Shown here piece after piece: positions 11,920 to 62,068 of a stretch of 64,000 nucleotides of DNA (the first letter of the stretch is position 1; every line of letters starts with the position of its first letter). A program made the translations under genes and the position numbers. The notes under the pieces were generated by a model, which was not told the DNA's origin, made no database searches, and saw only the letters and a program-made list of their open reading frames with translations. The stretch comes from Ophioderma brevispina (lineage: Eukaryota > Echinodermata > Ophiuroidea > Amphilepidida > Ophiodermatidae): the NCBI GenBank assembly GCA_023653785.1, contig JAMKCH010078878.1:62001-126000 (forward strand). Reading direction: 5' to 3'.

Positions 11920-12290
11920 ATCCCGGGGAATGGGGGATTTATCCCCCCCAATAGTTTGAATGAGGGGGGAGGGTCAATACGATCATTCCCCCCCAATGTT
12001 GATCCCGTTCATGTGTTTTTGACCAAAATAAAACCTCATATTTTACCGTATAACTTCAAAAGGCTAAATTTACAGCGCGCTTCTGATTGTTTCTCGCTCA
12101 TTTTGTTCTAATTACAATTAAATTTAACGATTTCAGCTCCTAAATGTCATTTTTTGATCGGCGCTTTGTGCGCACAGTGCTAGTAATGGACCCTTTTTCG
12201 CAAACCCCCCCCCCTTTCATTCATAAATTTTTTCATCACCTCCATCCCCCCAATGTCAAAAAGAATTTACGCGCCACTGCTAACAACAAT
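11920..12290. repeat. C/G-tract interspersed repeat (copy 1)
   Basis: The left end has GTAATCCCGGGG and long G and C runs near 11925-11995. The right end has CCCCCAATGTC then ACGCGCCACTGC. The ends are roughly complementary (GGGGG...CCCCC), which suggests a foldback element. The same block lies at 17400-17785, where about 450 bases (12020-12480 and 17560-18000) are essentially identical. Confidence 0.55.
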
Positions 12291-12548
12291 TTTGTGGAAC
12301 TTAGGGTCCAAAACTTAAGAATTTTTTAAAAAAAGAAAAATTTTAAACAAAAACTTCAAGCTTTTCCCGAATATTCAGAAATGCTAAGCCCATGACTTGG
12401 AAACGGAGTAATATTGAACAATGAAATCGAGTGTCAAAATGGTGTTTTTACCTCCTTATCTTATTATGCTAATAACGAAATTTTGTCCAAAAGTGGATTT
12501 AGGCCCTTTTAAAAAAATGATCTCTTTCAAAGACCACACACCCCTTAC

Positions 12549-12815
12549 TTCCACAAAGACCCCGCTTGTGGTCTTCTCTTCTCCAACAACACAGGAGTAG
12601 TCTGCTTCATCATCACTGAAATCCTTGATGACAAGTTTATGTACCGGACCTTCTTGTACCACTGTGTTTTCAGGTCCTTCCTCAATAGGCCTTCCATCTC
12701 TCAGCCATGTTACCCCCACCTTTCGCTTTAGGTACTGTGACCTCGCATTCAAAGGTAACAGCTTCATCGAATTCATGTTTTCGACATTTTGTAAAAGTTT
12801 GGTTGAATTTGGTAG
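12549..12815 (-). CDS. titin-like Ig exon D, duplication copy 1
   Basis: I-set Ig domain. Acceptor is ...TTTGCAG|CTACC and the donor is GGAA|GTAAGG, one G shorter than in copy 2. The minus strand shows FECEVTVPKAK with the first Cys, TWLRDGRPIEEGPENTVVQE with the core Trp, GPVHKLVIKDFSDDEADYSC with the second Cys, and VGEEKTTSGVFVEVRG. A small insertion before TWLRDG breaks the frame here. The sister exon 18037-18300 is open throughout. Strong similarity to exon C suggests these Ig exons arose by exon duplication. Confidence 0.8.
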
Positions 12816-12953
12816 CTGCAAATATCAGATTTTTGTTCCTCTTCAAATATTCACAATAAAAGACAAGGCTTATCCAGGGGGTGTGTATGTATCTGCACAA
12901 GCTAAGGGACAATGTTTTTGTTTTAATTTATTTGCTCCACATCTTTGTATTAA

Positions 12954-13085
12954 GGAGTCTCTGTAAACCTGGCCCATTTGACACACCTTTTTTCTGACAC
13001 ACTTATGAATTCGCAACCTATTCATTAAGTGTTGCGGAAAAAGTGTGTCGGAAAAAAGTGTCAGATGGGTCAGGTTCCGAACTCC
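12954..13085. mobile_element. palindromic MITE 1 (copy 1)
   Basis: The left arm runs GGAGTCTCTGTAAACCTGG, then TTTTTTCTGACACACTT. The right arm is AAGTGTGTCGGAAAAAAGTG running to GGTTCCGAACTCC. The arms are near-perfect reverse complements. The copy at 18440-18574 is cleaner. Confidence 0.75.
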
Positions 13086-13096
13086 CCTGTATTATG

Positions 13097-13282
13097 GTAT
13101 CCTGAATAATTATGGTAGCCACAATGTGTTTGCGCACCCACTGCAGCTGCACCCAGTTGAATTGAGCAGCCTTGACTGGAATAAAGTGCAGTGATACTGT
13201 ACGTTATTCCGTCAAGGCTGCTCAATTCAAGCTGGGTGCAGGCTGCAGTGGGTGCGCAAATTGGGGCTACCCTGAATATGAT
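13097..13282. mobile_element. palindromic hAT-like MITE 2 (copy 1)
   Basis: Long arms contain TTTGCGCACCCACTGCAG and the complementary CTGCAGTGGGTGCGCAAA around a TGATACTGTACG loop, with AATTGAGCAGCCTTGAC shared inversely. The right end reads CTACCCTG followed by aatatgat. The cleaner copy at 18595-18771 has aatatga before its left GGGTAG, so a 7-8 bp target duplication is likely. It would form a strong hairpin if transcribed. Confidence 0.75.
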
Positions 13283-13570
13283 GGGGAAATTGGGTCTTTT
13301 AATCACTGTTTTTAAAGGGTGTTATTCCCAAAGACTTGCTTGTCCAGGGAGTTAATTCAGCATGCCCCAAAATAATAAGATTCTATAGATAAACCAATTG
13401 CGAAGCAAAATTCAGAATATTGAAGAAAACCACTACATCATTATGATCTGGTGTAAACAGCTACAAGAGATATATTTTCAGGCGTAATCAATCTGGAAAC
13501 AGTCAAAAAGATGCATAATTGGGAGAGCAACAACAGTGTGTGTGTTGTGTCACAACAGTTAGTCTAATCG

Positions 13571-13758
13571 AATGAGCAAAAGATAATTGCTCGGATGCCC
13601 TTCCTGATGTAATATGCTGGATGGCCGCATTAGCTTCTCCAGAGCCGACGCCTGTAGGTAGGTCTTTATTTTTTAGTTCTATTCTACCAATTTTTAACCA
13701 TCTACCCTCCGCATTGAATTCATTTTTAAACCCGATGGTGAGGTTCAGCCGCCTGTTT
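13571..13758 (+). repeat. SINE-like repeat, 3' part (second copy)
   Basis: It is the duplicate of 8028-8215, base for base. It adjoins 155 bases of LINE 5' sequence, showing that the SINE and LINE insertions came before the segmental duplication. Confidence 0.75.
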
Positions 13759-13954
13759 TACCATCTCTGGATTGTATTAATTTTTTTCCCCCAAACAAAA
13801 TGCATCCTAATGATGAGACTATTACAGCAACTTTGAAATTTGTTTGTATAATGCTTGGTAAGATTTTAAAGTCCCCCATAATGCTGTACCCCCATTTCAT
13901 TATCTGCTGTGAACTCTTCCTTGAATACTTCCGTTCATACAGCATTCGTCAGTA

Positions 13955-14198
13955 GCCTTCCTTGTCCCTCACTTCACACTGAAAGTTTGCTTGATCAGGA
14001 AGCACGGCTTCCTTGATAACAAGACGGTGCTCTTTACCGAGGCGTACTCTTGTACGGTCCTCCTGGTTTGATGGGTTTGGGCCGTCTTTCAGCCATGTGA
14101 CCTCGGCAGTTTCATCGGATCTTTTATCCAGAAGATGCCCGCTTATCTTCCTTCAACTGTGATTGGGTTCAGTTTCTGTTGGAACTCAACTGGCGGTG
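13955..14198 (-). CDS. titin-like Ig exon A, duplication copy 2 (truncated domain)
   Basis: It is essentially identical to 8412-8655, including the same frameshift after ITVEG, the missing first Cys region and the loss of the final beta strand after CEVRDKEG. The acceptor is CACAG|CACCGCC. It is probably non-functional or mis-assembled in both copies. Confidence 0.6.
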
Positions 14199-14604
14199 CT
14201 GTGAAAAAAAGCACATTCCATTATTTTTTTGTATTCTTCTACAAAACTATTTGGCATTGAACCTCTAATTTGAGAGTACCAAACATCACATTATTTTTAA
14301 AGGATTATTATGTTCTGTCACATTTTCTAGTCATAGATTATCATGGAAGTTGCTGAAAAACCACATATCCTCCACTTGATTTATATTTGACCTTAGCCAT
14401 TTGTATGGCTCATCACTAATGTCTCAACTAATGGCTGATTTTGCTAGAAAATCAATTACATTCTGCCCATGTCTAGAATTTTTTTTGAGGCACTCCTTGT
14501 ATAAGATTTTTCCATGAAAACTAATCCATTTGCATAACAACGTCACTCTAGCTTGGTCCTAGTGTGAAGCCGATAGTTCAATAAAACTGATAAATTAACT
14601 TAAC

Positions 14605-14860
14605 TCTCGACAAAGAGTCCAGCCGCAGACATCACGTCACCAACACACATTTGTATTCCCCTTCATCATCGGGCCTCACATCAAGAAGTTCCAGTCTTCG
14701 CTTCTTCCCGTCAGTGATAGCGTGACTCGTTTCCTGTCCCTTAATTCCTTGCCATCCTTGAACCAGTTCACTTCTGCCTTCATCATTTGATATTTCACAT
14801 TCCAATACAGCCGATGGTGTTTCTACAGAGACGCGTCTTTTTCAGTGGGACCAGGAAACC
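14605..14860 (-). CDS. titin-like Ig exon B, duplication copy 2
   Basis: Minus-strand I-set Ig domain, 256 bases. It shows FLVPLKKT, then an ETPSAVLECEISNDE block with the first Cys, WFKDGKELRDRKR with the core Trp, KKRRLELLDVRPDDEGEYKC with the second Cys, and a VMSAAGLF end strand. At least one frameshift, between ISNDE and EVNWF, is shared with copy 1. The segment at 14810-14835 differs from copy 1 by substitution and deletion, the first place where the copies clearly part. Confidence 0.7.
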
Positions 14861-15936
14861 TTGTGGTTGTAGGTTAAATAACAAAATTACTGGTGTTAAT
14901 ATAAAGCCAAAATGTTAGGTTTCATACTGCTCACTTTTACTTCTTGCGAGAGAAATGGACAATAATGCCAGCGTGCTGAGATTTTAATGTGTCTAATGCA
15001 TGAGCTCTGCAGGAGCAAGTACATTGGACAAGGAATAAAATTCAGCGCAATCCATTGATTTTGCCTATTTGTTTTTTAGTCAAAAGTAAATGTCCAGTCT
15101 TATCCACGACAGAAAACCATAAGAACTTTGCCTTAATTAGTGATAAACATAGTTTTGAAAAAATATAATTTACCATGGAAAATTAAAAACAAAAAGTACT
15201 ATTAGTCCTGCACTATGCACACCCATTCGAAAGCACCTTACGCAGTTCACAGAGTGCAACTGGACATTTTCAATCCAGTCGTGCCACATTCGCATATTTT
15301 GTTAACGACTTCACTGATTTGCTGCTGTATATACATAAATACGCAGAGTGTATGAATGACATATAACTCATTTCTTTTTTATCATTTCACCAAAATGTTG
15401 CTGCATCCAACAAAATCGACCCCGTACACACTGCAAAATTGCTTATTTCAACGAAGATTAATTAATCTTGATTAGTTAATAAAGCATGTGTATACACTAC
15501 ACTTAATTAAGATACAATTGTGTACACACTAGCAAAAACTAACGAAGATTGAAAGAAGTGTGCCTACTGGAAATATGGCCTTGGTATGTAAACCAACACA
15601 CATCACCTCTTAATTCAATGAAGTGTGCATACACACTAGTCATTCTCTTAATCGAAATAACCATTCCCTTAATTGAAAGAAGCTGATCTGCTTCGTTGAA
15701 TTAAGCAAATTTAATCTTCGTTGAATAAGGGAAGAGCACACACACTATACTTGTCAGATTTTTAATCTTCGTTAACGCTTAGTCGAATTAAGAGATTTTG
15801 CTAGTACAGGGTCAATGTCAGCAGACAATGATGGCCATGAAAAATTGACATTTTAGAAAGGACATGACTACATTGTCTTTGTTGCCATAGAAACAATGGG
15901 AACAAACCAAAAGAAGAAGAATGATTCAGAACTAAC

Positions 15937-16200
15937 CTTCTACAAATAGACCAGCTTGAGTTTTCTCTTGTCCTGTAACACAAGCATAGTCTGCCTGGTC
16001 TGATCCCTGTAGGGTCTTGACAATGAGTTTACGCACTGGGCCCTCTTCAACAAACTGATACTTCTTTCCTTCCTTGATTGGCAAGCCATCCTTGAGCCAA
16101 GTGACTTTGGCTTGTGGCAGAGACACTTCACATTCCAAGGTAGCTGCTTCTTCAAATTCAATGGTTTCCACCTTTTGCAAAGGTTTGCTGAATTTTGTAA
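15937..16200 (-). CDS. titin-like Ig exon C, duplication copy 2 (intact)
   Basis: A complete 264-base exon (88 codons) on the minus strand with acceptor GAACAG|TTAC and donor GAAG|GTTAGT. It encodes one I-set Ig domain: VTKFSKPLQKVETIEFEEAA, then LECEVSLPQAK (Cys), VTWLKDGLPIKEGKK (Trp), VEEGPVRKLIVKTLQG, DQADYACVTGQEKTQ (Tyr-x-Cys), AGLFVEG. Exon borders coincide with domain borders, as in titin I-band Ig exons. Length, splice sites and conserved residues make this one of the most secure exons of the window. It should act as a folded spring or binding module in the sarcomere. Confidence 0.9.
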
Positions 16201-16981
16201 CTGTTCGGTCAAAAATGTAAAACATACAAATGTTTCTAGCTAGTGGAAATTAGAAGATAACAAAAAGGATCCACATACAATTTACTCATGTACCTTCACC
16301 AACTTTCCCCCCCCCAAAAAAAATACAGTGGATTGATGCACTTGTGATGAATCCATCGTTAATAATGATGGAAGTTCAAGAAATGTGAATACTTTTTGGA
16401 TCTGACAAACATATATTTTCAATTAAATTACTTACATGCGAATGCACTTATTCAATTGCTAATATTTGTTTTCTTTTTAGGACATCTTTGGATTCACAGT
16501 ACAGTGTCATGCTAGAATACACCAAATTGGCATTATGACTTCTGATAAATTTGCAGGCCTCCTGCCCTTTGACATCAATATTTCAGGGAAATTGCCTTTT
16601 TGTACTTTCGAAAAATGGGTCTAAAATATTTTTGAGATGTAAAAATGAGCAAAATATTTTACCCCATCCTGGTCAAGTACTTGATAAGCCATTGTAAAAA
16701 AACATTGCCAAAGATTTTACCAAGAAATCTTTATAATCCGTGTATGACAGCCGGAAAATACCCTGGTGCAATATTCATGTTGCTACAAAACATTTAAAAT
16801 GGTGGCCGACCAATGGTACAGTAGCACCCACGATAGTCATTGAATAGTACAAATTTTGCACTTCGAAACAGGGCTGAAAATGATACTCTCGGTAATCTCA
16901 ATTTCCAGTCATTTAGTGACAACATGAATTTTTTTTTTCATTTTTTTTGACAGCTCCGACTCAGAAAATCCAACTTATGAT

Positions 16982-17125
16982 ATTCAACGAAACAAAAGGA
17001 AACAGGCTCAGTGCACCCATTGGATTACACGCTTTATTCCGTTATCATACAATTTATACTATGACTGAATAAAGCATGTAATCCAGTGGGTGTACTGGGC
17101 CTGTTTCGTTTCGTTTCATCGAATA
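16982..17125. mobile_element. inverted-repeat MITE (copy 2)
   Basis: The left arm is ATTCAACGAAACAAAAGGAA and continues AACAGGCTCAGTGCACCCA. The right arm is the complement, TGGGTGTACTGGGCCTGTTT to CATCGAAT. The loop contains GCTTTATTCC and GAATAAAGC. About 144 bases, no ORF. Confidence 0.75.
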
Positions 17126-17399
17126 TAATAAGCCGAAAATCCAGGAAAAATTAAAAATGATAAAAAATCCGGGGAAATCACAGCCCTGCTGTAAAGAGAA
17201 TCTCAGGTGGAGATGAAAATCAAAAACCTGCATCAAAGTTGCTTATAAACTCTTCGAGTTATGACACTTACTTGTTTTTCAAGATGGCCGCCGATTTAAA
17301 AAAAAAAAAAACACTGAGTTTCTTTTAAGTATTTTCAACACTGTATCACTTTCAAAATTTCCTTTTGGGGGTATTTTGTTAGGTATGATGCTAACAACC

Positions 17400-17785
17400 A
17401 TAGGCGTAATCCCGGGGGGATGGGGGGATATATCCCCCCCAATATTTTGATGAGGGGGATGGTCAATACGATCATTCCCCCCCCAATGTTGATGCCCGTT
17501 CATGTGTTTTTTTGACGCAAAAACACCTCATATTTTACCGTATAACTTCAAAAGGCTAAATTTACAGCGCGCTTCTGATTGTTTCTCGCTCATTTTGTTC
17601 TAATTACAATTAAATTTAACGATTTCAGCTCCTAAATGTCATTTTTTGATCGGCGCTTTGTGCGCACAGTGCTAGTAATGGACCCTTTTTCGCAAACCCC
17701 CCCCCCTTTCATTCATAAATTTTTTCATCACCTCCATCCCCCCAATGTCAAAAAGAATTTACGCGCCACTGCTAACAACAATTTT
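17400..17785. repeat. C/G-tract interspersed repeat (copy 2)
   Basis: It is the duplicate of 11920-12290, with GTAATCCCGGGGGGATGGGG at the left end and CCCCCCAATGTC plus ACGCGCCACTGC at the right. Confidence 0.55.
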
Positions 17786-18036
17786 TGTGGAACTTAGGGT
17801 CCAAAACTTAAGAATTTTTTAAAAAAAGAAAAATTTTAAACAAAAACTTCAAGCTTTTCCCGAATATTCAGAAATGCTAAGCCCATGACTTGGAAACGGA
17901 GTAATATTGAACAATGAAATCGAGTGTCAAAATGGTGTTTTTACCTCCTTATCTTATTATGCTAATAACGAAATTTTGTCCAAAAGTGGATTTAGGCCCT
18001 TTTAAAAATGAGCTCTTCAAAAGACCACACCCTTAC

Positions 18037-18300
18037 CTTCCACAAAGAGCCCAGCTTGTGTCTTCTCTTCTCCAACAACACAGGAGTAGTCTGCTTCATC
18101 ATCACTGGAAACATCCTTGATGACAAGTTTATGTACCGGACCTTCTTGTACCACTGTGTATTTAGGTCCTTCCTCAATAGGCATTCCATCTCTCAGCCAT
18201 GTTACCTTCGCTTTAGGTACTGTGACCTCGCATTCAAAGGTAACAGCTTCATCGAATTCAGTGGTTTCGACATTTTGTAAAGGTTTGTTGAATTTGGTAG
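18037..18300 (-). CDS. titin-like Ig exon D, duplication copy 2 (intact)
   Basis: A 264-base exon (88 codons) on the minus strand, acceptor ATTTGCAG|CTACC, donor GAAG|GTAAGG. It encodes KFNKPLQNVETTEFDEAVT, FECEVTVPKAK (Cys), VTWLRDGMPIEEGPKY (Trp), VVQEGPVHKLVIKDVSSDDE, ADYSCVVGEEKTQAGLFVEG (Tyr-x-Cys). It has the same length and architecture as exon C and high residue identity to it. The Ig domain is complete with all core residues. Confidence 0.9.
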
Positions 18301-18439
18301 CTGCAAATAATCAAGAATTTTGTTTCTCTTCAAATATTCACAGATAAAATACAAGGCTTATCCAGGGGGTGTGTATGTATCTGCACAAGCATAAGGAAAA
18401 TGTTTTGTTTAATTTAATTGCTCCACATCTTTGTATTAA

Positions 18440-18574
18440 GGAGTCTCTGTAACCTGGCCCATTTGACACACTTTTTTCTGACACACTTATGAATTCGCAA
18501 ACCTTATTCCATTAAGGGTTTCTGAAAAAGTGTGTCGGAAAAAAGTGTCAGATGGGTCAGGTTACGGAAACTCC
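18440..18574. mobile_element. palindromic MITE 1 (copy 2)
   Basis: The left end reads GGAGTCTCTGTAACCTGGCC, and the right end's reverse complement reads GGAGTTTCCGTAACCTGACC. The inner arms are TTTTTTCTGACACACTT and AAGTGTGTCGGAAAAAAG. Flanking tatta occurs on both sides and may be the target duplication. Confidence 0.75.
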
Positions 18575-18594
18575 CCTGGTATTATGGTATCCTG

Positions 18595-18771
18595 AATATG
18601 AGGGTAGCCACAATTTGCGCACCCACTGCAGCCTGCACCCAGTTGAATTTAGCAGCCTTGACGGAATAAAGTGCATGTGATACTGTACTTTATTCCGTCA
18701 AGGCTGCTGAATTCAACTGGGTGCAGACTGCAGTGGGTGCGCAAATTGTGACTACCCTGATATGATGGGGA
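18595..18771. mobile_element. palindromic hAT-like MITE 2 (copy 2)
   Basis: The arms share GGGTAGCCACAATTTGCGCA, then CCCACTGCAG, GCACCCAGTTGAATT and CAGCCTTGACGGAATAAAGT, reversed on the right side. Terminal GGGTAG/CTACCCTG with aatatga-like flanks fits hAT. Confidence 0.75.
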
Positions 18772-19077
18772 AAGGGAGGTATTAACACTGTTTTAAAGTT
18801 TTTTATTCCAAAGACTTGACTTTCCAGAGTAATTCAGCGCCCCAACAATAATAAGTTCTATAGAAATAAACCCATGCAGGAAGGAAAATCAGAATATTAA
18901 CCCAAAACCTTATTTTGGGTAAAAATAGGTCTACATCTGCCTATAAATTACAGGGTGTCTAAAATAGTCACACCATCGTAAGATCTGAACAATTTAACAG
19001 TGGGCAAAAATATGACACCTGTACTGATCGTTGCTGCACTGTGGCCTGAGTGGATCAGATGTGTCAAATTAGATTCA

Positions 19078-29880: not shown

Positions 29881-30660
29881 AAAGGTGCAACGAGAGATTT
29901 CACATATCAGGTTTCCCTAAAATATTCAAAAGTACTGATTTTTGCCCTGATGCAAAGCTTTCGATCAGAAATATCCCCATCTGAAAGGATTAAGCTTAGA
30001 AATGTTTCTTTGGTACAAAAATTTTGAAATTTCTAATTTCGTATAGGAGCAAATACAAAATTCAGCCTATGTTAGTGTTAGACCAAAGTTTTAAATCCGG
30101 TTTTGTCCCCGTAAACGAGGGTGGCCGGATTCACCTCACACTCAGCAATACTGCAGTATGAGGATTTATTGGAGCAAAAGATAATTGACCGGATGCCCTT
30201 CCTGACGTCAATCCACAGTTATCGGCGGTGGGCCTAGCCTTTGGGCAACTTTGCCCAACATGCAAGGCAGCATGTGCTGGATGGCAGCCATTAGCTCTCC
30301 AGAGCTGACGCCCTTGTAGGTAGATCTTCTTTTTCATTCTACCAGGGTAACCAGCTACCCTCCTCATCAGATTCCTTACAAATCCGATTGGGGAGTCGGT
30401 TTAGCCGCCGACGACTCGGCCCTGGGACAGGTAGTACTGGTTACCAGGATACCAGTAGCAGGTCTCAAAGAAAACCTGACCTGACAACCAATGTTTTATA
30501 TTAAAATATAAGCAAATCAAAATCACCCTTTTTTCTCTCTTTTAAGACATTTCTGAAGCCAAATACAAGGTAAGAAATCTATTGAATGTCTAATCTATAT
30601 GAAATTGCTATTATGACAAAATATTTGGGTCCCTCAAAATCTCTCGTTGCACCTTTAATA
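29881..30660. mobile_element. TTAA-flanked MITE family III, copy split by a SINE-like insertion
   Basis: The left end is TTAAAGGTGCAACGAGAGAT and the right end is AATCTCTCGTTGCACCTTTAA. The terminal inverted repeat is near-perfect over 18 bases and TTAA lies at both borders. With the insertion at about 30079-30492 removed, the length (about 370) matches the copy at 26643-26998. Confidence 0.8.
30079..30492 (+). repeat. SINE-like interspersed repeat, full copy
   Basis: Its order is an AGACCAAAGTTTTAAATCCG head, TGAGGATTTATTGGAGCAAAAG, GGATGCCCTTCCTGACGTC, GGCGGTGGGCCTAGCC, GCTGACGCCCTTGTAGGTAG, ACTGGTTACCAGGATACCAG, and a tail of CCTGA units. It is flanked by atgtt on both sides, and the empty site is visible in the MITE copy at 26.8 kb. 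I see no tRNA-like A/B boxes, so 'SINE' is a working label. Its length of about 415 bases is shared with 59395-59830. Confidence 0.8.
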
Positions 30661-34540: not shown

Positions 34541-34831
34541 CTTCAATTTTGGGGGCTTCGTGTACATCAAGCAAGGCTGCAGTACGATGGACACCCAGTT
34601 CACAAGAATATTCATCAGCTTCTTCAAAGGTCACGTCATGTATTGTGAGGGATCTTCTTCTTCCTTTTGAGACAATCTCAAACTTCTTGACATCTGCTTT
34701 GGTAATCTCCACACCTGATTTGAACCATTTTACATCAGCTTGTACATCTGACACTTCACAGATGAATTCTACTGTTCTTGAAGGTACTGTAGTTATAGGC
34801 TTAAGCTCCTCAACAATGGTGAACTCGGGTA
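34541..34831 (-). CDS. titin-like Ig exon (intact)
   Basis: A 291-base minus-strand exon, acceptor ATCCAGCAG|TACC, donor GAAG|GTATAT. It encodes PEFTIVEELKPITTVPSRTV, EFICEVSDVQADVKWFKSGV with Cys and Trp, KKFEIVSKGRRRSLTIHDV, TFEEADEYSCELGVHRTAAL with Tyr-x-Cys, LDVHEAPKIEG. This is the same Ig subtype (PxFxIVEELKP... RRSLxIHDV... EAP) as the exons at 60995, 62069 and the Ig at the start of the 57-52 kb exon. The frame is fully open. Confidence 0.92.
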
Positions 34832-36960: not shown

Positions 36961-37705
36961 GGAAATTATTTTAAGACCCCAATTTAACCATTCCTCATCA
37001 TAAAGAACCGGCTTTTAATTCTTTGTCATTGAAGGAACTGCCCACCTTAGACCTCCTCTGTTGAAATTCTAGTAGGTACGCATACGTCAAGTTCATACTG
37101 GACAAGAGCAGACGATGGCGGCCAAGCCATCATTCAATATTGCAACCACCCAAAATATCAAAAGAAATTACAGCAATAGGGAGTACAAACCACAACATTT
37201 GGGTGTTTTGATGGGGGTTGGTCATGTGGTCTTCCGATGACCCACAACGACCTCGCCTTGTTCTTTATTCATTTTTGGATAAGACAATATTCCTTGACAA
37301 CATATAAAAAATTCAAAATTTTTCATCCAGATTTTGCTTTTATGTGTTGAACCAATGGTGACATCTAAAATTAGGATTTCTTTGGCTTCCCGCCCCTGAA
37401 GAGTGAAGTTTTTACTTTGTTTTTCATTCAGGACACAATTTTGCTGCAAGACTGCAAGATGACTTATTAAACTTTCCATCCAAATTGTTACAATCCCTTC
37501 ACTATGAATTATTAGTGAGTATCTGGTTGATGGTAAATGTAATACCTACGCTAAAGATGGGATGTTTCTAAAGCCAAATGATAAAAGTGATTGCTTCTAA
37601 CAGAAACATACACTACATGACAATTACATCTTTATTATGATCACTAAAATAACAGTCCTAGTTCTGAGCATGACATTTGACCTTGACCTGCTATGACACA
37701 GTAAC

Positions 37706-37775
37706 CTTCTTCTTCAGTTGGTGCCTTTTCTCTGATTATCGGCGCTTCTTCAACCACTTCTGCCTTCTTGCGTTG
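37706..37775 (-). CDS. small PEVK/linker exon
   Basis: A 70-base minus-strand exon, acceptor ATATTTCAG|CAACGC, donor GAAG|GTTACT. It encodes QRKKAEVVEEAPIIREKAPT followed by EEE. This K/E/P/V-rich content is like titin PEVK exons. It is too short for a family match and rests on splice sites and composition. Confidence 0.6.
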
Positions 37776-38183
37776 CTGAAATATGAGAAATAAACGACAC
37801 TTTCTCATATTTTACATGATCATTAATGGGTTTAGAGTTTGTTATTGGTCGGTCACATAATGTTCTCATACCCCAAAATAATAGCACAAGTTAATAGACT
37901 TGATACCCATTTTTATACCTAAAATTTTTGAATCCCCATTATCCCTACCGGAGACATTAATTTGGCAGTTGAAATTGAATCTTTTGTTTTATCTATCACA
38001 ACTTTTGAAAAAAATGTGTTTTTATAACATGGTAACCATCATTAATTATGAACTGAAAAGGCATATTCCAATTAATCAAACCCCATATGTATTTATGTAC
38101 TCAGTTTCTAGTGTGTTTTCCTGGGTGCGTATACGGAATTAATGTGGAATAGATTATCTGTCTTAAAAACTACATTGACATAC

Positions 38184-41420: not shown

Positions 41421-41507
41421 AAAACCAGACGTAGTAGCTGTAGTAGCCTTGTAGTAGAGAGTTAATACAAAATAAAACATTTTAGCTTGACCGAGTCTTT
41501 CTATATC

Positions 41508-41594
41508 ACCAGCATAACACCAGCATAACACCAGCATAACACCAGCATAACACCAGCATAACACCAGCATAACACCAGCATAACACCAGCATAC
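41508..41594. repeat. 11-bp tandem repeat, about 8 units
   Basis: Perfect or near-perfect tandem copies of ACCAGCATAAC. The period of 11 is not a multiple of three. On the minus strand it reads open as a Cys/Trp/Val/Leu repeat, which is coincidental. Confidence 0.95.
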
Positions 41595-44050: not shown

Positions 44051-44925
44051 CTGCAAAATGAAAAATGCAAAATAAAACATCAAAAATGTTACAGTGTTAT
44101 ACAAATAATAGAAAGATATAATCAGTTTAAACAACGTTGGTCCATTTTGGAAAATGGTGAAGTGAATGGTCATTTTATGGTCGGTAAGCCAACATCGGGG
44201 CGAAGTCGGGAAAATGGTGGGGGGGAATAGTGTTTATGTCGGCTGACCAACGTCGGGGGCAAGGTTAGCCCATCGACTCGATAATTAGCAATTACTATTA
44301 GGCCTAATTAATAAAGGAAATTAGTATAGCCGAAACGGAAATCTGGGCTTTTAGCAAAAATAGAGCTCGACTTCCCAGACCCAACCACATTGTGCTATAA
44401 AATAAAACATGCCTTTGCAGTGATCATTTTGTTTGTATTTTGTACACTTTGTTTTCACCACAATACAGGGATTCCCTGAGCTTTTCCAGTTTTTTTCACA
44501 ATGCTGTGCAGCTCTGAGATGTAGGTCGCTATTTTGAGTCTTTAGTCTTTTACTTATTGTGTTAAACCTGTTGAACATTTTTTACAATGATATATTATAT
44601 TTTGCCCTTGTTATCAAGCAGTGATGTAGCTCAATTGCAGACCGGCCTCAATGGTACTATTCGACTTCTAATTACAAAGTCCCTGGTCGATTCTCGGTCC
44701 AAGGTAAGTTGACTTTCTGGCACTATACTACGTGAATCAAAAAAAAAATTGTGCAATGATTGCAGTGATCTTGACCTTGATAAAATCACGGAATCATAGC
44801 GTGTGTGTTTTAATAAAGCAAATCTAATACACTCCAAGTGTTGAATAAAATGAAGAAATGGACTGAAAAAATAAGCCAGATATGACAAAAATTATTTAAA
44901 TCAACAATTAAAAAAAAGAAAAAGT

Positions 44926-49500: not shown

Positions 49501-50572
49501 AAAATACGTCTTGAAAGATATAGTTCTTGGTTTAAAATTGTCAAGCTACTGCAAAAGTGCTTCCATTGGTGCTGCAGTGATTTGACTTCCAGGAATAGTG
49601 GGCTTGCAAAGAGGTGTGCTGCTGCCCAGGAAGGTGTGCCTTTTGGGATTGGGAAGTAGACCTGGACCTACTGTATCATAAAAGAGTTATGGACCGAAGT
49701 GCTTTTGCGAGACAGCAATTGTGCTTAAAAGATACAATACTAGTAATTGCAGAAACAATCACTTTGAAATGAAGGAGTGTATGTGAACTTGGTGATAATG
49801 CTTACTGCTAGTGGTTCAAATGTTCATTTTCTTAAAACATTTACTGTGTCCATCCAAGATGGCCGCCAATCAGTGATGCAAAATTCAGCAGACATTATGA
49901 ATGAGGATATTTAAATTGTAAGTGTGAAAATGCATTTCAGTCTCAGTGCAATGGTATACAGTAGCAATAGGTTGAATGAAATTCCAACTCTGAATAAAAT
50001 GGAACCCCTAATATGTCCGATTGCAGCCCACAAAGGAAGGCAGATATTTAACAGCTAAGTAGCATACATGCCACTTTGGTGCAGTAAGGGCTAATTTTCC
50101 ATGTGAGTGCAAGCTCATAAATGCAATAGCTGCCATTTGTTAGAAATTCCCATCAAACATACTACTATATCAAGTCTTTGGTCAGTTGGCTCTTGAAATG
50201 GTTCTTCAGGTGATACAGTCAGCTGAAGAACCACTTTAAGAGCCACTGACTCAAAGAAATATAAATTAAAGGTCATCCTAATACATGGCAGCACATAGAT
50301 GTATCATGGCAGCTATTGCTCTTATGACCTTCTTGCACTCACTTGACAAATTGTTATAATGACAAGTTTACAAACAATTTGTGATCATGTTTATCATATC
50401 ATTGTGATGCACTGAAGCTCTCATACTAGCAGTATCTGAAGTTTAAAGTGCATTGGGTGCATGTGTCATTTCATTGTTGAAGTGTGGTCATGACATGTAA
50501 AATTTGTGAGGTGAAAAATAGAGGGGGAACAGAATGTTACATTGTGCCAATTCTGATCATATCATGTAATAC
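49501..50572. other. intron, possibly with part of an exon at its left edge
   Basis: Minus-strand PKRHTFLGSSTPLCKPTIPG at about 49580-49640 is open and might extend the preceding coding region. The rest is non-coding and includes the hairpin-bearing repeat at 50172-50390. Confidence 0.45.
50172..50390. repeat. hairpin-bearing repeat, copy 2
   Basis: GTCAGTTGGCTCTTGAAATG, GTTCTTCAGG and the complementary CTGAAGAACCACTTTAAGAG, CCACTGAC form a hairpin. The downstream AGCTATTGCTCTTATGACCT, TCTTGCACTCACTTGACAA matches 47552-47740. Confidence 0.65.
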
Positions 50573-50677
50573 CTTCAGGTTTCAGTGGTTCCAGCTTCTT
50601 TTCTTCAACTTTCTTTTCAGGAACCTCTTTCTTTTCTGGTTTGGCCACTGCTTCGACTGTAACTGCTTTTTCTGCTT
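50573..50677 (-). CDS. PEVK exon, 35 codons
   Basis: A clean 105-base minus-strand exon, acceptor TGTCATCAG|AAGCAG, donor GAAG|GTATTA. It encodes EAEKAVTVEAVAKPEKKEVP then EKKVEEKKLEPLKPEG. This is the classic K/E/P/V composition of a titin PEVK exon. The length, 35 codons, equals the repeat period in the large exon upstream, though this exon has no Trp. Open throughout. Confidence 0.88.
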
Positions 50678-52222
50678 CTGATGACATAACATGATTCTTA
50701 AAGGTCAATTTCAGTTCATACCGGCATGCCAATGAGTGCAAACAGGTGCCGTGGTGATGAAAGCATGCACAAGAAGGTGTGAGTACTTCAGAGGATTTTA
50801 TTGATTTCGTGCATCATTTCTTACCTTTGCTGTTTAGGAATGATTTCAAAACACAACTGGTCAACTGGTAAATACCACCAGCTGAACCATTTTCTGGATA
50901 TTGTTTGCAAGACAATACGGATCAACAGCTATTTATCACTTATTGATTAATATTCATGTTTTGAAATTGTTCCTTACCAGGGCCGTACGCAGGACTGCGG
51001 GTATGCGGGAAGTGGACCTTTTTTCCGAAAAAGTGGACCTTTTCTGGTAAAAGTGGACCTAACCCCTAAAATGGTCCTTTTTTACTTTTTAAACATTTCA
51101 CCGCCAAAAAGTGAACTTTTTTGTCAATATTTCTCTAAATTTTTGACCTTTTTATCAACAAAATCTTCAAAAAGTGGACCTTTTGCCCCTTTTGTGGAAT
51201 TGGGCCCCGCACCCCCGCGTACGGGCCTGTTCCTTACCGTGTTCAAAGTGCCAAGGAATTGCTTTACTTACTGCAGGGTGTGCGAGAACCCACAACACAC
51301 AGAGGGTGTATGGTGAGTGGTGCATTCAGGTGCGACCTCAAAATACAGCTTCTGGTTTCTTAGCAGCAGTAAATCAAAATTCTATTGTGACTCAATTACC
51401 ATACCATAAAATACCAACCAACAGTGCCATTGGTGAAGTGTAAATGTTTCAAATGCACAATACTTGTAAACTTTTGGTTATCAAAAACAAAAGCTTTTAA
51501 AACATTTTGTTTAAACATTCAGCTTTAAAATTTCTTTGTGGTACATAGTATTACAATTGATATAACTATTTCAAACAAATGAACTTTGGCGAGGATTTGA
51601 AGGAGTGCCATTGTCTATGACATCTTCAAATCATATTTCAGCCAAATATATAAATGATCATACCCCAATACAGCTGTTAAAATAATACTTTACCTCATCT
51701 CCACTTCCACTATAGTTTGGGTACACAATGCTAATATATTCTATGAATTTGCAATCTAGTTTGAAGCAGTTTGTAGGACTCATCATCTGGAGTGAGATCT
51801 ACTTTATTTGATACAAAAAAAAATTATTATGTAGTACCAAAGCTTGAGTGGGACCTTTGGTTATGTAGAACCTATGGGTGATGGGTATAGGATCACAGCA
51901 TTCAGTATTCTGGAAGAGGAAACTGGAACCAACAATAATAAGTATAATTTCAAAAGGTAGCTACAAATTTCAATAACACTATAAAGTCAAGAACTTCCCC
52001 ATAAAAGATTCGAACTAGTAAGCAATTAACAAATTTTGTGTGTGCCACCTACTTGAACTCAAACTGTAACCATAACCCTATCCATCATCGTATCAACTCT
52101 AACAATCCAAACTTGGGATCACACCATATAATAAAACACACTCCAAATATCGCCATCTATTAACAAAAGCCAAGGATCCATGCATTGGGGGCCCCATGCA
52201 CCGGGATAAATATATTCAATAC
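50678..52222. other. intron with one hAT MITE
   Basis: It holds the element at 50978-51229. The rest is AT-rich without exon signal. Confidence 0.65.
50978..51229. mobile_element. hAT MITE, CAGGGCCGTACGC family, copy 2
   Basis: It begins CAGGGCCGTACGCAGGACTG and ends CCCGCGTACGGGCCTG. It is bounded by a perfect 8-base direct repeat, ttccttac. 252 bases, with AAAGTGGACCTTTT repeats inside, related to the interior of 30862-31065. No ORF. Confidence 0.92.
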
Positions 52223-55200
52223 CTTGTGGAACAAGCTTTTCTTGCATAATAGTCTCTTCCTTCGTGATAAGTTTGGGTTTGGCCTCAACAGGGATCTCGG
52301 CAACCTCCTCTTCCTTGGGCGCTTTCTTGACCTCAACTTTAGTAGTTGCAGCAACATCTGCCTCGGAGATTTCGGCCTCTGTAGTAGTGCATACTTCTGG
52401 AGCTTCCAACTTCTCAACAACAAATTCAAACTCTTCTGGTGCTTCCCAGAATGGAAGAACTTTCTTGGGTTTAGCTTTAAGCTCAGCAGTAACTTCAGGA
52501 ACTTCTTCCAATGTCACCTCTGCCGTTTTAGCAATCTTTGTTTTCTCTTTTACTTCCTCAGCATCTACCTGTGTCTCTTCCATTATTTTAACCTTAGTTG
52601 TTATTTCATCCTCCAAGGCCTTCTTTTTCTCAACTTCAACTCTTTCCCTTTCAGATTCTTTCTTCATCTCTATTTCTTCAGAGGTAACCTCTTTAGGTAC
52701 CTTCGTTATTTCTACTTCTCGTTTATCTGGTTTGGGAGCATCTTCAAGTTCAACTTCCGTTGTGGTTATAGGTTTCCTTGGTTTAGTAACTTCAATTTCT
52801 TCCACTGCTTCTCCCTTGGTGGGTTCTTTTTCTTCTGGAGTGATCACTTCTCTTTCTTTGTCTTCAACAGTAACCTCCTCAGGTTTTATCTTCTCAATCA
52901 CAAATTCAAAGTCTTCAGGAGCTTGCCATGGGATAATTGGTTTAGTGACAGCAACTTCTTTAGCTTCAGGGATTTCTTTTTCTTTCATCTCAAGCTCTGC
53001 AGTTATAACTTCTTTTGGAATATCTCTTGATTTTAATGATACTTCAACTGTTTCCTCAGGTATCTCTTTAGTCTCAACTTCAACTTCAGCAGCTTCAGAT
53101 GGCGCCATTGTGACTTTAAGCTCTGCAGTGTCGATCTCACTAGGTGCTTTCTTCAGAACAATTTCCTCTTTTGCAGCTTCTTCTGGTATTTGTTCTACTA
53201 CACTTATCTCTTCTTTAACTATCTTTCCGAGTTTTCTTTGGTATAACAACTATTTCAGCTTCCTCGGGTTTAGCTTTAGTCCTTCTTCAACCTCTTTTGT
53301 GACAGTTACCTCAACCTCTTCTTGTTCAAGATCTTCTTCTTCTTCTTCAAGCTTTGTTGCAATTTTAGCCTTAGGTACCCTAGCAATCTGGACACCCTCT
53401 TTCGTATCAGGCTTTGTTTTAGGAACCTCTTGTATTTCTGCTTCTTCTGTGAGTTTTTCCTCAGAGACTTCAAACTTTTCAATTACAAATTCAAAGTCTT
53501 CAGATGCCTGCCAAGGTATTTCGGGTTTGATGGTAACAGGTGCTTCTAGTTCTGTAGTAACTATAGGTTTTCTTTCTTTGATTTCTACTACATCAAGTGG
53601 ACCAGGTGCCTCTTCAGCTTCAACTTCTGTTGTCTCAGCTTTAACAGAATCTGGTTTCAGTGCAAGCTCTTCAGTGACTGTGGTTTCGATTTCTTCGTGG
53701 TCTTCTTCTATTTCAACATCTGTCGTAAACAATGCTCTGGTTCTTTTTCTTGTAACAATTTCAGTCGTTTGTTCTGGTGCCTCTGCAGTAATGGTTGTTT
53801 TTGGCGCTTCTGAAACTTCCACCTCTGTAGCAGCAATTGACATTCTTTTCTTTGGGTGGACCTCCCGCTCAGTGGTGACGACTGATTCTGGCGCCTCTTC
53901 AACATCAAATATGGCAGTGACTATATCTTTTGGTTCCTTCAGCTCCATTTCTGTAGACACAACAGCTGAAGACTCTTGAGCTTCTAAAACGGTTGGTGTT
54001 TCCGCAACTTCAATTGTGGTCTCAACTGCTTCCTCTGGCTTTTCAACAACAATTTCAAAATCCTCAGGTGCTTGCCAAGCAACTGTTGTTTCCTTCTCAG
54101 CAATCAAAACTTGTTCTGGAGGAAAAGTTCCAGCTTCTTGTGCCGTTGGTATACCAGTGTCAGTTTCTTCGGTTGTCACCCACGGAACTTGTTCCTCTTT
54201 TTGAGCTACTACGATTGCAACAGTTTGTTCTTCTTCAACTCGCGTCTCTTCAGTAACTGTTTTTTCAAGTGCTAATTCTTCTGGTGCTTCTCCCTCTACC
54301 GTAATTTCTCTTTCAACAACAGACACCGGTTCTGTTGAAATGGTCTCTGCTTCTGCACTAGGAGTTTTAGCTTTTTCGTCTTTCGTAACCTCCCATATGA
54401 CATCTTCTTTTCTGCCTGGGGCTTGGACAAAGGAAACGGTGACCTCTTCAGCTGCTTCTGGTTTACCAGTTTCTATTGTAATATCTTCAGGAGCTTGCCA
54501 TGGTACGGGTGTCTCAGTCTCAGCAGCTGATACTGATTCTACAACCACTGGCTTTGCTCTGTCAGACGGTATCTCTTGTTCGTCTTCTGTAGTTTCCCAC
54601 GCAATGTCTGTCTGGGTTTTCGGAATTTGTATGGCTTGACCTGGTACCTCTTCAGCTTCTGCAGGTTTTTCAATAACGAATTCAAAATCTTCAGGAGCTT
54701 GCCATAGCTGAGAAGTTTCTCTCTTAGCAATTTCCATAGTCTCTGTTGGTTTAACCACCACTTCTCTACCTCTGAGAACATCGGCTTCTTTCTCAGCGGC
54801 ACCTTCCCAAGTTGTATCCTCCTTTCGCTCATGAGTTTCTACAGCAACAACAGTAACTTCCTTTGCATGCTCTCCTTCCTTTACTATTTCAAAGTCTGCC
54901 GGTGCCTGCCAGGGAGTGACTGCTTCTGTTTCAGCAACTGTTACAGCCTCTGTTTGCACGGTACCAGCTTCAGTGACAGGAATTTCTTCCTTGTCTCTTT
55001 GGTACTTTCCCATGCCAGTTCTACTTTTTGTTCAGGAACTTTAACGGCTGTTGTTGGTTGTTCTTCAGCTTTTTTGGTCTCAACAGATACTTCAACTGCT
55101 TCTCCAGCATGCCAAGTGGTAGTTGTTTCTGTCTCTGGGACAGATATGGTTTTAGCTGGAACAGTAGCTGCCTCTTCTGCTACCAGTTCAGCCCCTTCTG

Positions 55201-57000
55201 CTTCTCTTGGTGCTTCCCATGCAACGTCCGCCTGCCTATGTAAGACTACAACTGGCGTCGGGGGAACCTTTTCTGCTTCGGGCTTGTCAATGATAAGCTC
55301 AAACTCATCTGGAGCCTGCCAGGATATGGTAGTTTCAGTTTCTACAGCAGCCACAGGTTCAGTTGACAAGGCCCCTGCCTCTGTTGTGGGTACTTCAACC
55401 TTTTCTTCTGTAGTAGTTTCCCATGGAATCTGCTTTTCTTGTTCGGTAGTCTCTACTGCAGCCGGTGCTGACTCACGGACCTCATCGACTTTCTCAATGA
55501 CAACCTCAAATGATTCAGGAGCTTGCCATGGCATAGTTGTCTCTCTGTCAGGCACAGTGACAGTGGCTATTGGTGCAACATCCGCCTCCTCAGCTTTGGC
55601 AATATCACCTTCAGTCTCTGTTGTAGATATCCATGTCAGTTTCTCTTCTTTGTCAGGAGCTTCAAGGGCTGCTGTAGATACTTCTGTCACTTCCTCTGGT
55701 TTATCAGCTGTTACCTCAAAATCCGTGGAGGCTTGCCATGGTACTGTTTGCTCCTTTTTCGGCATACTAAACATCCCCCCCCCCCCCCCCCCCGCGTCCG
55801 TTGGAATAACGCCAGCATGTTCTTTTGGGACTTTTGTAGCAGCATCAACCGTTTCTTCCCAAGGCACCTGCTCTTCTTTCTGGGTTGCTTCAACTGCAGA
55901 AGTAGTTATCTCCTCTGCTTCAGGTTTTTCAATCACTACTTCAAAGTCCTTAGAAACTTCCCACGGCATTGTTGCTTCAACCTCGGCAATTTTGATGCCT
56001 TCAACTGGTTTAGTTTCGGCTGTTTCTGATACAAGAGTTACATCTGGTCTTTCTTGTACTGCTTCCCATGGAACATGTTCTTCCTTTTCAGGGACTTCAA
56101 TGGCAGCAGGCGAAACTTCTTGAACTTGGTCTGATTCGGCAACAGCAAGTTTAGTTTCCTCTGAAGCTTGCCATGTTAAAGAAACTTCTGTTTCAGCAAC
56201 TGAAATACCTTCAGCAGGTTTTACCACAACCTCCTCAGTTTCTAGTAAATCAGAAGGCTTCTCTTCAGGTGCTTCCCAACGAACTTGCTCTTCGGTTTCT
56301 GTAGTCTCAATAGTGCTCGGTGTTTCTTTGGCTTTCATTTCAGGCTCATCAATTACCCGCTCAGTTATTTCTGAAACCTCCCATGGAACTTGTTCTTCTG
56401 TTTCTGGAATCTCAACCGATGCCAAAGGTACTTCTTTTGCTTCACCTAACTTTTCTATAACTACTTCAAAGTCCTCATGGGTTTCCCATGGAACTGCAGC
56501 CCCCTTCTCTGCTGTTGAAACCATCTCCAATGGTAGTTCTGATACTTCTTTAATGGCAGGTGTTTCAGATACATCTTCTTCTGGTTGTTCCCATACAGGT
56601 TGTTCCTCTGTTTCGGGCACCTCTATTGCAACAGTTGGAAGTTCCTCGGCTTCAACTTTCTCGACAACTACCTCGAGTTGTTCTGGTGCTTGCCAAGGAA
56701 TAGTTGGAAGAGACACAGGTTGTGGAGCTTCAAGGACTTCCAAAGATGTTGATGTACGACGACCTGATACCTCGCATGTGTACTCTCCAGCATCCTCTGG
56801 GGTCACATCATGAACAACTAGCGACCTTTTCCTTTCGACAGTTTTTGTCTCAAACTTGACTTCATCTGCGTGAATTTCTACATTGTCCTTGAACCATGTT
56901 GCGCCAGCCTCTTCATCTGATACGACGCAGACAAGTTCTACTGTTTCGGTAGGAGTAGCTTGAACTGGTTTCAATTCTTCAACAATCTCATATGTTGGTT
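52223..57000 (-). CDS. titin-like giant exon: one Ig domain plus acidic Trp-punctuated PEVK-like array
   Basis: A single minus-strand exon of about 4.8 kb (about 1,590 codons), acceptor TCGCCATGCAG|AACC, donor CACAAG|GTATTG. The first about 97 codons form an I-set Ig domain: PTYEIVEELKP, VELVCVVSDEEAGATWFKD (Cys, Trp), RKRSLVVHDVTPEDAG, EYTCEVSGRRTSTSLEV. From about 56700 to 54040 comes an array of about 26 units of 34-35 residues, each opened by a Trp (typical WQAPEDFEVVIEKPEAEEV alternating with WExxE...PVxVAETET types). From about 54040 to 52230 are E/T/V/A repeats of the TTEVEVEEAP kind with only three further Trp. It is strongly acidic and poor in Lys in the array. One frameshift near 54990 and two near 53240-53280 break the frame, probably consensus errors. 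The presumed role is an elastic or binding segment of a sarcomeric protein. Confidence 0.9.
55775..55793. repeat. 19-base C run inside the coding array
   Basis: On the coding strand it is a G run giving six consecutive Gly. The frame stays open. The unit containing it is 41 residues between Trp instead of 35, so the run accounts for the six extra residues. Confidence 0.9.
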
Positions 57001-58084
57001 CTGCATGGCGAACAAGAAGCAATGTAGATTATGTCAATTTGTTCATTTTGGATGGTTTCCATGCAGGTCTATAGGTTGGTCTGATGTCATGGCGGCATTC
57101 AATATCCACTCAGGTTCATGCAATATCTCACCACTCTTTGGAAATGTAGTTATGATGGTATCCATGAGGAAGCAAGCAAATGTCGATGACCTGACACACA
57201 TACTTCACATCACCCATGCAATGATACGTTGTAAAGAGGTTGCATGGGGTGACTCGGAATTATAACATGCTCTTGCAGAATGGAAAGTATATACATTGGT
57301 ATGAAGGAACAATAAGGAGCCTACTTATGATGCACTATGAACTTGGGAAAAGTATCACATATTTGTGTACATATATGTTGTCCATGCAAATGAGATAACT
57401 TCACACCATATGGAATATATCCAGAGGAAAGGGCACTGCATCCAGAAGATAGGAGAGACCAACATTGACGATTTGGAAGGAAAAATCATCATGCAGTTTC
57501 AATAATGCGGAGATCATTTGGGTAAATAATAAAAAAGGTTACAGTATCCACTATTTATGTGCAATTATTTGCATAGAGCATTAAGACTCAAACATATGGT
57601 TCCATGCACAGGCATCATAGAGGTAGCATATAACAGAAAGAATGATGGTTTTTTAGAAGGAAATTTCCCATCATGCAATATAAATGATACAGAAATTTTG
57701 GAAAGCTATAATAAGGAATGGGTATTTCTGCTGTTTAAAAATCTATCGTTATATTTCATAGGAATCACAGGCCTTTGCTTCTATCTATGATACAACAGAT
57801 GTATAAGTGTATACAGTGTATACAAGACAATAATGGGTAGCATAAGTCCAGGGCAATGTCCATCAAGCGATGCGGATGATGCAGAAACATGTTTAAGAAT
57901 GGGAGAATAAAGGAAGGCTGAGGTAGTTGTAACTGATACCCATATGAATCTTGGCAAAATAACAAGAGTGTATTGATAGATTTTGTATTGAGTTAGACGG
58001 ACCCTGTTCAAACGTAAGAAAACACTGGAGTAGGTTTTGTGTAGTTAAAATTTCAGTGCCAGCACATCGGTCATGGACAGCGTA

Positions 58085-59394: not shown

Positions 59395-59830
59395 TGGTTA
59401 GGTCAGGTCAGGTTTCTTGAGGTCAGCTCAGGTTTCTTTTGAGGGCCTGCTACTGGTATCCTGGTAACCAGTACTAACCTGTCCCAGGGCCGAGTTGTCG
59501 GCGGCTAAACCGTCAACCCCATCAATTTTCTATTGGAAATCTGATGAGGAGGGTAGCTGGTTACCCTGGTAGTATGAAAAAGAAGATCTACCTACAAGGG
59601 CATCAGCTCTGGGGAGCTTGGCGGCCATCGAGCACATGCTGCCTTGTATGGTGGGCATAGTTGCCCAAAGGCTAGGCCTACCGCCGAAAACTGTGGATTG
59701 GCATCAGGAAGGGCATCCGGTCAATTATCTTTTGCTCCAATAAATCCTCTCACAGCAGTATTGCTGAGTGTGAGGTGTATCCGGCCACCCCCGGATTTAA
59801 AACTTTGGTTTTACTACTACCACTACATTG
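59395..59830 (-). repeat. SINE-like interspersed repeat, full copy (minus)
   Basis: It is the reverse orientation of the repeat at 30079-30492, with all blocks present: GGTCAGGTCAGGTTTCTTG tail, CTGGTATCCTGGTAACCAGT, GAAGGGCATCCGGTCAATTA, TGGAGGATT-type centre, and a CCGGATTTAAAACTTTGG head. Flanking attgg on both sides is a likely 5-base target duplication. Confidence 0.8.
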
Positions 59831-60994: not shown

Positions 60995-61288
60995 CTTCAA
61001 GTTTAGCGACTGGGGCTTTGTGTACTTGTAGAGAAGTAGTTGATTTACGACCACTGACTTCTACAGTGTATTCTCCTTCATCTTCAGGTTTGACATCATG
61101 AATCACAAGTGATCGTTTCCTTTCGGTAGCTTTGGTCTCAAACTTGACATGATCTTCTTTGATGACCACTTTGTCCTTCATCCAGGTAGCCTCTGCTCGT
61201 TGGTCGGAAACTGTGCATACTAATTCCACAGTCTGGGCAGGAGTGGCTTTCACAGGTTTAAGTTCTTCGACGATTTCAAAGATAGGTT
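60995..61288 (-). CDS. titin-like Ig exon (intact)
   Basis: A 294-base minus-strand exon (98 codons), acceptor TCCCACCAG|AACC, donor GAAG|GTATTT. It encodes PIFEIVEELKPVKATPAQTV, ELVCTVSDQRAEATWMKDKV (Cys, Trp), HVKFETKATERKRSLVIHDV, KPEDEGEYTVEVSGRKSTTS, LQVHKAPVAKLEG. The second Cys of Y-x-C is Val (EYTVEV), so no canonical disulfide can form. Open throughout and very similar to the Ig at the head of the next exon. Confidence 0.92.
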
Positions 61289-62068
61289 CTGGTGGGATGC
61301 AGGATACTAAAGCATGAAGATCAGATTTGCTGTACAAGGTAATGATGTGCTAATCGTGCAGTGGGTTCATGCACACTCAGACTTCCAAGCCATTACATTA
61401 AGAATATTTTGATACAAATGTACTTAGTGATCTACGATCAAATGGGTAAAGGTTTGGACTTTCTACACACAGATTGTTGTAACAAGTAGAAAATATTCTT
61501 ATGTGAGATCAACATGGAACTTATTAAGAAGGAATATGCAGATTCTGGTCAGTTTGACAAAGTAGAGTTTCAATATCTATTATGTCAAATTTTTAGCAGC
61601 ATTTGGAATAACGTATTGATGTTAGGCGGAATTTGTAAATTATGTCAATGTTATGCGGAAATCAAATTGGGCAAAATAAATATGAATATAAACATGCATA
61701 TTGAAACCATTTATGAAAATATAATACATTTGTAACTGATATCAACATTGTTGTATTGATACAAATATACCAATCACACCATGTAGGTTCCAAAGAAAGG
61801 ACACAATTTGCAATATTTTTGGACAATTGTGTTAGCTAAGGTTGATTGATTCAGCGACAAATCATAAATTTCATTATTTCTAAGGCATGGTATCAATTGT
61901 TAGACAATATTTCAGTATTTATGTAAGTAACACAGGCTTAAGAAGTATATGGTACAATTAGCAAACAGGCAAAACTTTTATTTCTCTTCAAGAAGTAATT
62001 TATACATAGCGTGCAAAGATCATACTGCATCACGTTGCATGGATACAGGCAGATATCATGCTGTATAC
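61289..62068. other. intron, nothing recognised
   Basis: AT-rich, about 780 bases. A plus-strand ORF at 61514-61735 has no recognisable domain. Confidence 0.6.

Follow-up and report, generated by a model that had tools for sequence, protein, structure and literature searches.

A titin-like gene on the minus strand of a 64,000-nucleotide stretch of the brittle star Ophioderma brevispina genome (GenBank assembly GCA_023653785.1, contig JAMKCH010078878.1, positions 62,001 to 126,000; the whole stretch is referred to as the window) carries, in one large exon, an immunoglobulin (Ig) domain, an acidic array of 26 units of which 25 open with tryptophan, and a PEVK-like tail. On balance, the array appears to be a PEVK-like, acidic, disordered spring in a titin-like protein of an invertebrate, along which aromatic sticker or docking sites are placed at regular intervals. 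It was first noticed in an earlier reading made from the letters alone (the sequence-only reading), which described a Trp-punctuated acidic repeat of 35 residues. The repeat may be called new in the sense that it is without a match among proteins of about 382–4161 residues. The features of the exon are as follows.

52223 to 57000, minus strand: large exon with Ig domain, Trp array and PEVK-like tail (4778 bases as assembled)
56738 to 56971, minus strand: I-set Ig domain at the head of the exon (Pfam PF07679, E 1.2e-10; also our own Ig profile)
53973 to 56695, minus strand: array of 26 units (14 type A, 12 type B), 25 opened by Trp and one by Gly (from Trp codon positions and the unit table)
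55739 to 55861, minus strand: unit 9, 41 residues, containing six consecutive Gly (unit table)
54912 to 55012, minus strand: unit 17, with a frame break inside (101 bases, 34 codons minus one base)
54183 to 54293, minus strand: unit 24, 37 residues, in which Gly replaces Trp (GEAPEE; unit table)
54077 to 53973, minus strand: unit 26, the last of the array (unit table)
52223 to 53972, minus strand: PEVK-like tail without a regular Trp period (from composition)
53475 to 53513, minus strand: free-standing A motif WQASEDFEFVIEK (type A profile, 19.8 bits, model positions 1–20 only)
52890 to 52928, minus strand: free-standing A motif WQAPEDFEFVIEK (type A profile, 23.0 bits, model positions 1–22 only)
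52410 to 52448, minus strand: free-standing A motif WEAPEEFEFVVEK (type A profile, 17.2 bits, model positions 1–23 only)

The first Trp codon of the array lies at 56695 and the last at 54077 (minus strand), and the units are contiguous with lengths of 33–41 residues. The frame break in unit 17 was bridged with X, after which the Trp gap from 55012 to 54911 reads 35. The gaps between successive Trp residues are 33–35 residues in 22 of 24 cases (21 of 23 without the bridged gap); the remaining two are 41 residues (the Gly-run unit) and 71 residues (34+37, across the Gly unit). In 20000 shuffles of the 904 residues of the array, gaps of 33–35 residues numbered 0.8 on average and never more than 6. 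The inventory given by the sequence-only reading (26 units, 25 Trp, the Gly unit and the 41-residue Gly-run unit) is present in full, with far more gaps of this length than in the shuffles; the array was also correctly located, except that it ends at 53973, slightly beyond the 54040 assigned to it. Glu makes up 21.7% and Lys 6.0% of the array (computed over 905 residues, counting one Pro that precedes the first Trp but not the final five residues of unit 26), as expected from the earlier description of Glu as dominant and Lys as scarce. The net charge per residue is −0.175, the fraction of charged residues is 0.328 and Cys is absent; Tyr is absent from both array and tail. Pro, Glu, Val and Lys together account for 48.6% of the array and 56.1% of the tail, a PEVK-type content for which no cut-off was applied. 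The strict periodicity that had been ascribed to aromatic residues in general holds for Trp but not for Phe, which occupies position 7 in 8 of the 14 A units and in none of the 12 B units, with two further Phe elsewhere in B units.

The units alternate between type A (WQAPEDFEVVIEK..., roughly W-Q-A-P-E-D-F-E-V-V-I-E-K..E.A.E......VE.P..EEQVP) and type B (WE..E..., roughly W-E-.-T-.-E........EA...P.E.VSVAETETTVP), which together form a super-repeat of about 69–70 residues. The mean identity between units is 0.323 for those two apart and 0.346 for those four apart; the values are 0.246 and 0.219 for units one and three apart. Among units 5–26, mean identity is 0.331 for the 110 same-parity pairs and 0.219 for the 121 opposite-parity pairs, a difference that was reached in none of 20000 label permutations. 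Units 1–4, whose A/B labels were assigned by eye, were excluded from this test because unit 4 appears to be an additional unit of type A that puts the phase out of step. The spacing of about 35 residues claimed initially therefore stands, but it is only half of an alternating unit with a deeper period of about 69–70 residues.

The array is old. Identical codons at matching residues were observed between units at a frequency of 0.453, compared with 0.460 expected from codon usage alone (all unit pairs counted together; Trp, Met and unit 17 excluded), indicating that synonymous sites are saturated. Trp, which has a single codon, is nevertheless found in 25 of 26 units; among the other scored columns, the commonest residue's share is at most 0.73 and on average 0.45. 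Given the saturated synonymous sites, Trp is probably kept by purifying selection, in keeping with the selection proposed earlier; its retention amid saturation is the strongest evidence here for such selection and was obtained without an orthologue.

The tail is composed of 24.6% Glu, 12.1% Lys, 11.8% Val and 7.4% Pro (over 585 residues, the first five of which still belong to unit 26) and has no strong period, lag 27 exceeding the average over lags by only 1.9 standard deviations. It contains the three free-standing A motifs, whose Trp codons follow at distances of 188, 195 and 160 codons from the last array unit onward (the second, 195 codons, is 192 in the joined conceptual protein). The top type B match in the tail scores 1.9 bits. 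Outside the large exon, the type A profile has no match at E≤1 in open reading frames (ORFs) of at least 25 residues, and the type B profile has one, on the plus strand at 44308–44397 (E 0.5, 7.5 bits), which is taken as chance. The first ~20 residues of type A thus look like an independent linear motif, judging from sequence. Because the tail holds three copies of this motif without the rest of the unit, separated by long spacers, the motif is likely the functional element, with the rest of the repeat mainly spacer. Downstream of the large exon, two small PEVK-like stretches on the minus strand, at 50565–50813 (Lys-rich, EKAVTVEAVAKPEKKEVPEKKVEEKKLEPLKPEG) and 37647–37811, look like ordinary short PEVK exons.

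The titin-like assignment of the gene, made earlier, is borne out at the sequence level by the Ig domain in the repeat exon and the Ig exons on either side of it. Tandem titin-type I-set Ig domains are present, with Pfam I-set matches in two exons and more Ig exons detected by an Ig profile grown from two exons. This profile gave 22 rows of Ig-like stretches between 62.3 kb and 0.3 kb, without exception on the minus strand. A large share of the rows are partial, overlapping or weak, and one, of 24 bases, is certainly a chance match; frame shifts evidently interrupt many of the stretches. The top PDB sequence match of the first ORF of the exon (57028–54944) is titin (3b43_A, E 4.8e-23), and the best stretches of the best 60 of 95 PDB matches lie within residues 11–110, the Ig part. 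The Pfam search of four ORFs found no FN3 or kinase domain, the window not being scanned for FN3 or kinase exons. The large exon has phase 1 at both ends, matching the upstream Ig exons, with predicted splice sites (assigned by eye) comprising an acceptor ...CGCCATGCAG| before 57000 and a donor CAAG|GTATTG at 52223/52222. Two neighbouring Ig exons are as follows.

61026 to 61259, minus strand: upstream Ig exon, sister of the Ig at the exon head, without the repeat (Ig profile)
34569 to 34802, minus strand: next well preserved downstream Ig exon (Pfam and Ig profile)

The Ig at the exon head (56748–57003) and that of the preceding exon (61039–61291) share 70.7% DNA identity over 256 aligned columns of the minus strand. 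From this identity, the repeat-bearing exon may derive from a duplicated Ig exon that grew on its 3' side.

The reading frame of the large exon is interrupted at two sites. The first ORF and the second (55031–53253) overlap in different frames, and the exon length of 4778 leaves a remainder of 2 on division by 3; restoring the one base missing from unit 17 makes the length a multiple of 3. The second ORF ends at a TAG (53252–53250), after which the third ORF continues in the same frame. Since the stretch around 53290–53225 reads PEVK-like only in the third frame, two compensating frame shifts at about 53290 and 53225 are the preferred reading, although a single wrong base at the TAG is possible. 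These breaks are read as unpolished sequence, rather than as signs of a pseudogene.

In the proposed mechanism, the strongly acidic segment that follows the Ig domain within a single exon would be a probably unfolded chain acting as an entropic spring. Along this segment a Trp recurs about every 35 residues, and every second Trp, as a rule, opens a conserved hydrophobic motif, W-Q-A-P-E-D-F-E-V-V-I-E-K. These Trp and A-motif sites, apparently kept by selection as judged from units within one gene, probably serve as weak sticky points or docking sites evenly spaced along the chain, with the A motif as the likely functional element and the remainder mainly spacer. The entropic-spring part is drawn by analogy with PEVK, described in PMC3859903 as a modified entropic spring that contains short, quasi-stable elements. 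A more specific version, held tentatively, is a ruler-like docking strip in which copies of the motif bind a periodic sarcomere partner or each other and set stiffness via reversible aromatic contacts. Its motif, a new linear one proposed just as tentatively, would be W-Q-A-P-E-D-F-E-x-V-I-E-K and variants, in up to 14 copies at about one per 70 residues plus the three in the tail. The periodic ligand put forward in the sequence-only reading is accordingly possible, and likelier given the free-standing A motifs, although the ligand itself is putative. At 0.31–0.38 nm per residue, a unit would span about 11–13 nm and a pair about 22–26 nm; no conclusion is drawn from these spans, because the rise per residue can be chosen to fit any of several sarcomeric periods. 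The usual account of titin springs is of disordered chains whose tuning comes from length and charge; the retention of a one-codon aromatic residue at a constant phase in 25 of 26 units that are old and diverged suggests selection on something besides bulk composition. The array may show the extent to which one invertebrate lineage has remodelled titin's elastic part, and a two-unit peptide of ~70 residues would be a compact object for assays of sticker-type elasticity or periodic docking.

Several observations weigh against this interpretation. The array, with its Trp, hydrophobic stretches and few Lys, is unlike textbook PEVK. No orthologue was found among proteins of about 382–4161 residues, so that conservation rests on comparing units within one gene; moreover, the frame of the exon is broken in the assembly and the exon is known from genomic sequence alone. 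The alternation is imperfect, its phase being broken at unit 4; ungapped identity is no lower at lag 35 (0.188) than at lag 69 (0.186), and an A–B pair, units 3 and 21 (0.52), ranks within the 12 most alike. Finally, disorder is favoured weakly by the structure predictions, since the Ig domain also scored below 50 in one of them and the alignment used in the other had only 8 rows.

These predictions bear on the claim that the array has a defined fold. AlphaFold2 modeling of a three-unit stretch, with an alignment of 8 rows (the query and seven sister stretches; units 8–10, around the Gly run, left out), gave a mean predicted local distance difference test score (pLDDT) of 52.7 with no residue at or above 70 and no DSSP assignment, and a single-sequence model of the whole ORF has pLDDT <50 at all 695 residues, Ig included. 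No ordered structure is thus predicted in the array and the claim of a fold was not upheld, both predictions being weak tests; the chain is modeled as probably disordered or unfolded. A structured module, in which each 35-residue unit or pair of units folds as a bead on a string, would suit the near-fixed length, the fixed Trp and the preferred hydrophobic positions (V/I at type A columns 11–13, also 34, 36 and 43), but is rather improbable in view of these weak predictions, the acidic and Cys-free composition, the tolerance of a Gly run and of lengths from 33 to 41, and the occurrence of the A motif in the tail without the remainder of the unit. The regularity could instead be an echo of recent tandem duplication, with Trp lacking any function. 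The units do lie in tandem in one exon, but synonymous positions are saturated over all pairs, Tandem Repeats Finder (TRF) reports no DNA tandem repeat in 52119–57028 (it misses copies less than about 70% alike), and unselected copies of that age are not expected to hold a one-codon residue in 25 of 26 units. Recent duplication is therefore refuted unless the all-pairs saturation masks a subset of recent copies, and its probability is close to negligible. An assembly artefact or a pseudogene is only slightly less remote: the frame breaks at two places within 4.8 kb, in unit 17 and near 53250 (two shifts or one stop), and further Ig exons are also broken (e.g. near 62261), but the breaks sit within otherwise open coding frames, the frame is identical before and after the 53250 site with a PEVK-like third frame in between, and the array period continues on either side of unit 17. 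Together with the exon length, a multiple of 3 once the base missing from unit 17 is added, this is the picture expected of an unpolished assembly.

Known repeats offer further alternatives. The array resembles titin/connectin PEVK in its disordered-looking, Glu/Val/Pro/Ala-rich chain beside an I-set Ig and in its repetition of short modules. Vertebrate PEVK is encoded by many small exons, in contrast to the one large exon here. The array differs too in having Lys at only 6.0% and one Trp per unit, and its periods of 33–35 and about 69–70 residues contrast with the 28 residues given for the PEVK repeat in PMC3859903. The nearest precedents, by description, are the long repeats of crayfish I-connectin and the elastic regions of Ce-titin. 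Crayfish I-connectin reportedly contains 68- and 71-residue repeats (Fukuzawa, in 2001), long, charged non-Ig repeats of about 70 residues in an invertebrate titin-like spring; Caenorhabditis elegans Ce-titin reportedly has two new possible elastic regions (Flaherty, in 2002), and is comparable as an invertebrate titin with novel regions proposed to be elastic. Membership of the array with these arthropod or nematode repeats, as a known spring in another animal, is the least unlikely of the rivals, although still doubtful: the super-repeat of about 69–70 residues is close to the reported 68 and 71, but the array has no Pfam match and the likeness is one of length. It would be compatible with the spring mechanism, and comparison with the crayfish and nematode repeats could place the array in a known family. 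A link to nebulin had been raised on the basis of module length, which is shared at about 35 residues. However, no SDxxYK match occurs in the conceptual exon protein, the array has no Tyr and is acidic, its higher order is two units, not seven, and no helix is predicted (at low confidence), whereas nebulin modules are alpha-helical and extend about 5.5 nm each according to PMC3859903. A nebulin-like ruler, with each unit binding one actin subunit, is thus very improbable, and the link did not hold. As for kettin, a likeness exists in the 35-residue spacing beside Ig domains, kettin having Ig domains with spacers of about 35 residues. No Ig lies between the array units, the only one being at the head of the ORF (residues 14–90 of the first ORF, none in the second or third), and the kettin reading was rejected.

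No Pfam or NCBIfam model matches the repeat; Pfam finds Ig only at residues 14–90 of the first ORF and no family in the second or third, and the second ORF has no PDB sequence match at E≤1, as anticipated by the suggestion that the repeat is not a described family. Rfam and tRNA searches gave no matches. The search for relatives spanned proteins of about 382–4161 residues (a length rule of 0.55–1.75), and full-length titins, which are thousands of residues longer, fall outside these bands. With the whole first ORF, nothing was found at E≤0.001 among 7997 scored candidates of 382–1216 residues, perhaps owing to acid-rich words filling the candidate list, which is suspected because ordinary titin Ig fragments were absent too. 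Residues 1–175 of the conceptual exon retrieved 17 proteins among 1026 candidates (875–2784 residues), apparently via Ig domains, including obscurin-like and titin-like vertebrate proteins, a putative titin of the sea cucumber Apostichopus, myosin light chain kinases, VEGF receptors and one Ig/PEVK-like protein. All 17 have at most three Trp gaps of 32–36 residues and no W[QE]AP motif, and the A and B profiles gave nothing above 2.2 bits on them. Units 19 (part) to 23 alone had no match at E≤1 among 1228 candidates (1308–4161 residues). Among the matches listed from the open-licence PMC literature, no title or abstract start concerned a Trp-periodic titin repeat. One protein retrieved with residues 1–175 of the conceptual exon (P0011, 2584 residues) has Ig domains alternating with long Glu/Lys/Val-rich stretches, an Ig–PEVK architecture without the Trp repeat.

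Other repeats were also observed in the window. A direct tandem duplication of 5.5 kb (7872–13421 and 13415–18898; 92.3% identity in an alignment of 5659 columns with 284 gap positions) bears Ig exons of the titin-like gene, and there are frame breaks common to its Ig pieces at 8.4/9.1 kb and 14.0/14.6 kb. Copies of an interspersed repeat, about 370 bases long and 89.8% identical, lie at 59422–59793 and 30116–30485 in opposite orientations, away from the exons seen. A minisatellite at 41503–41593 consists of 8.3 copies of the 11-bp unit ATAACACCAGC with 98% matches.

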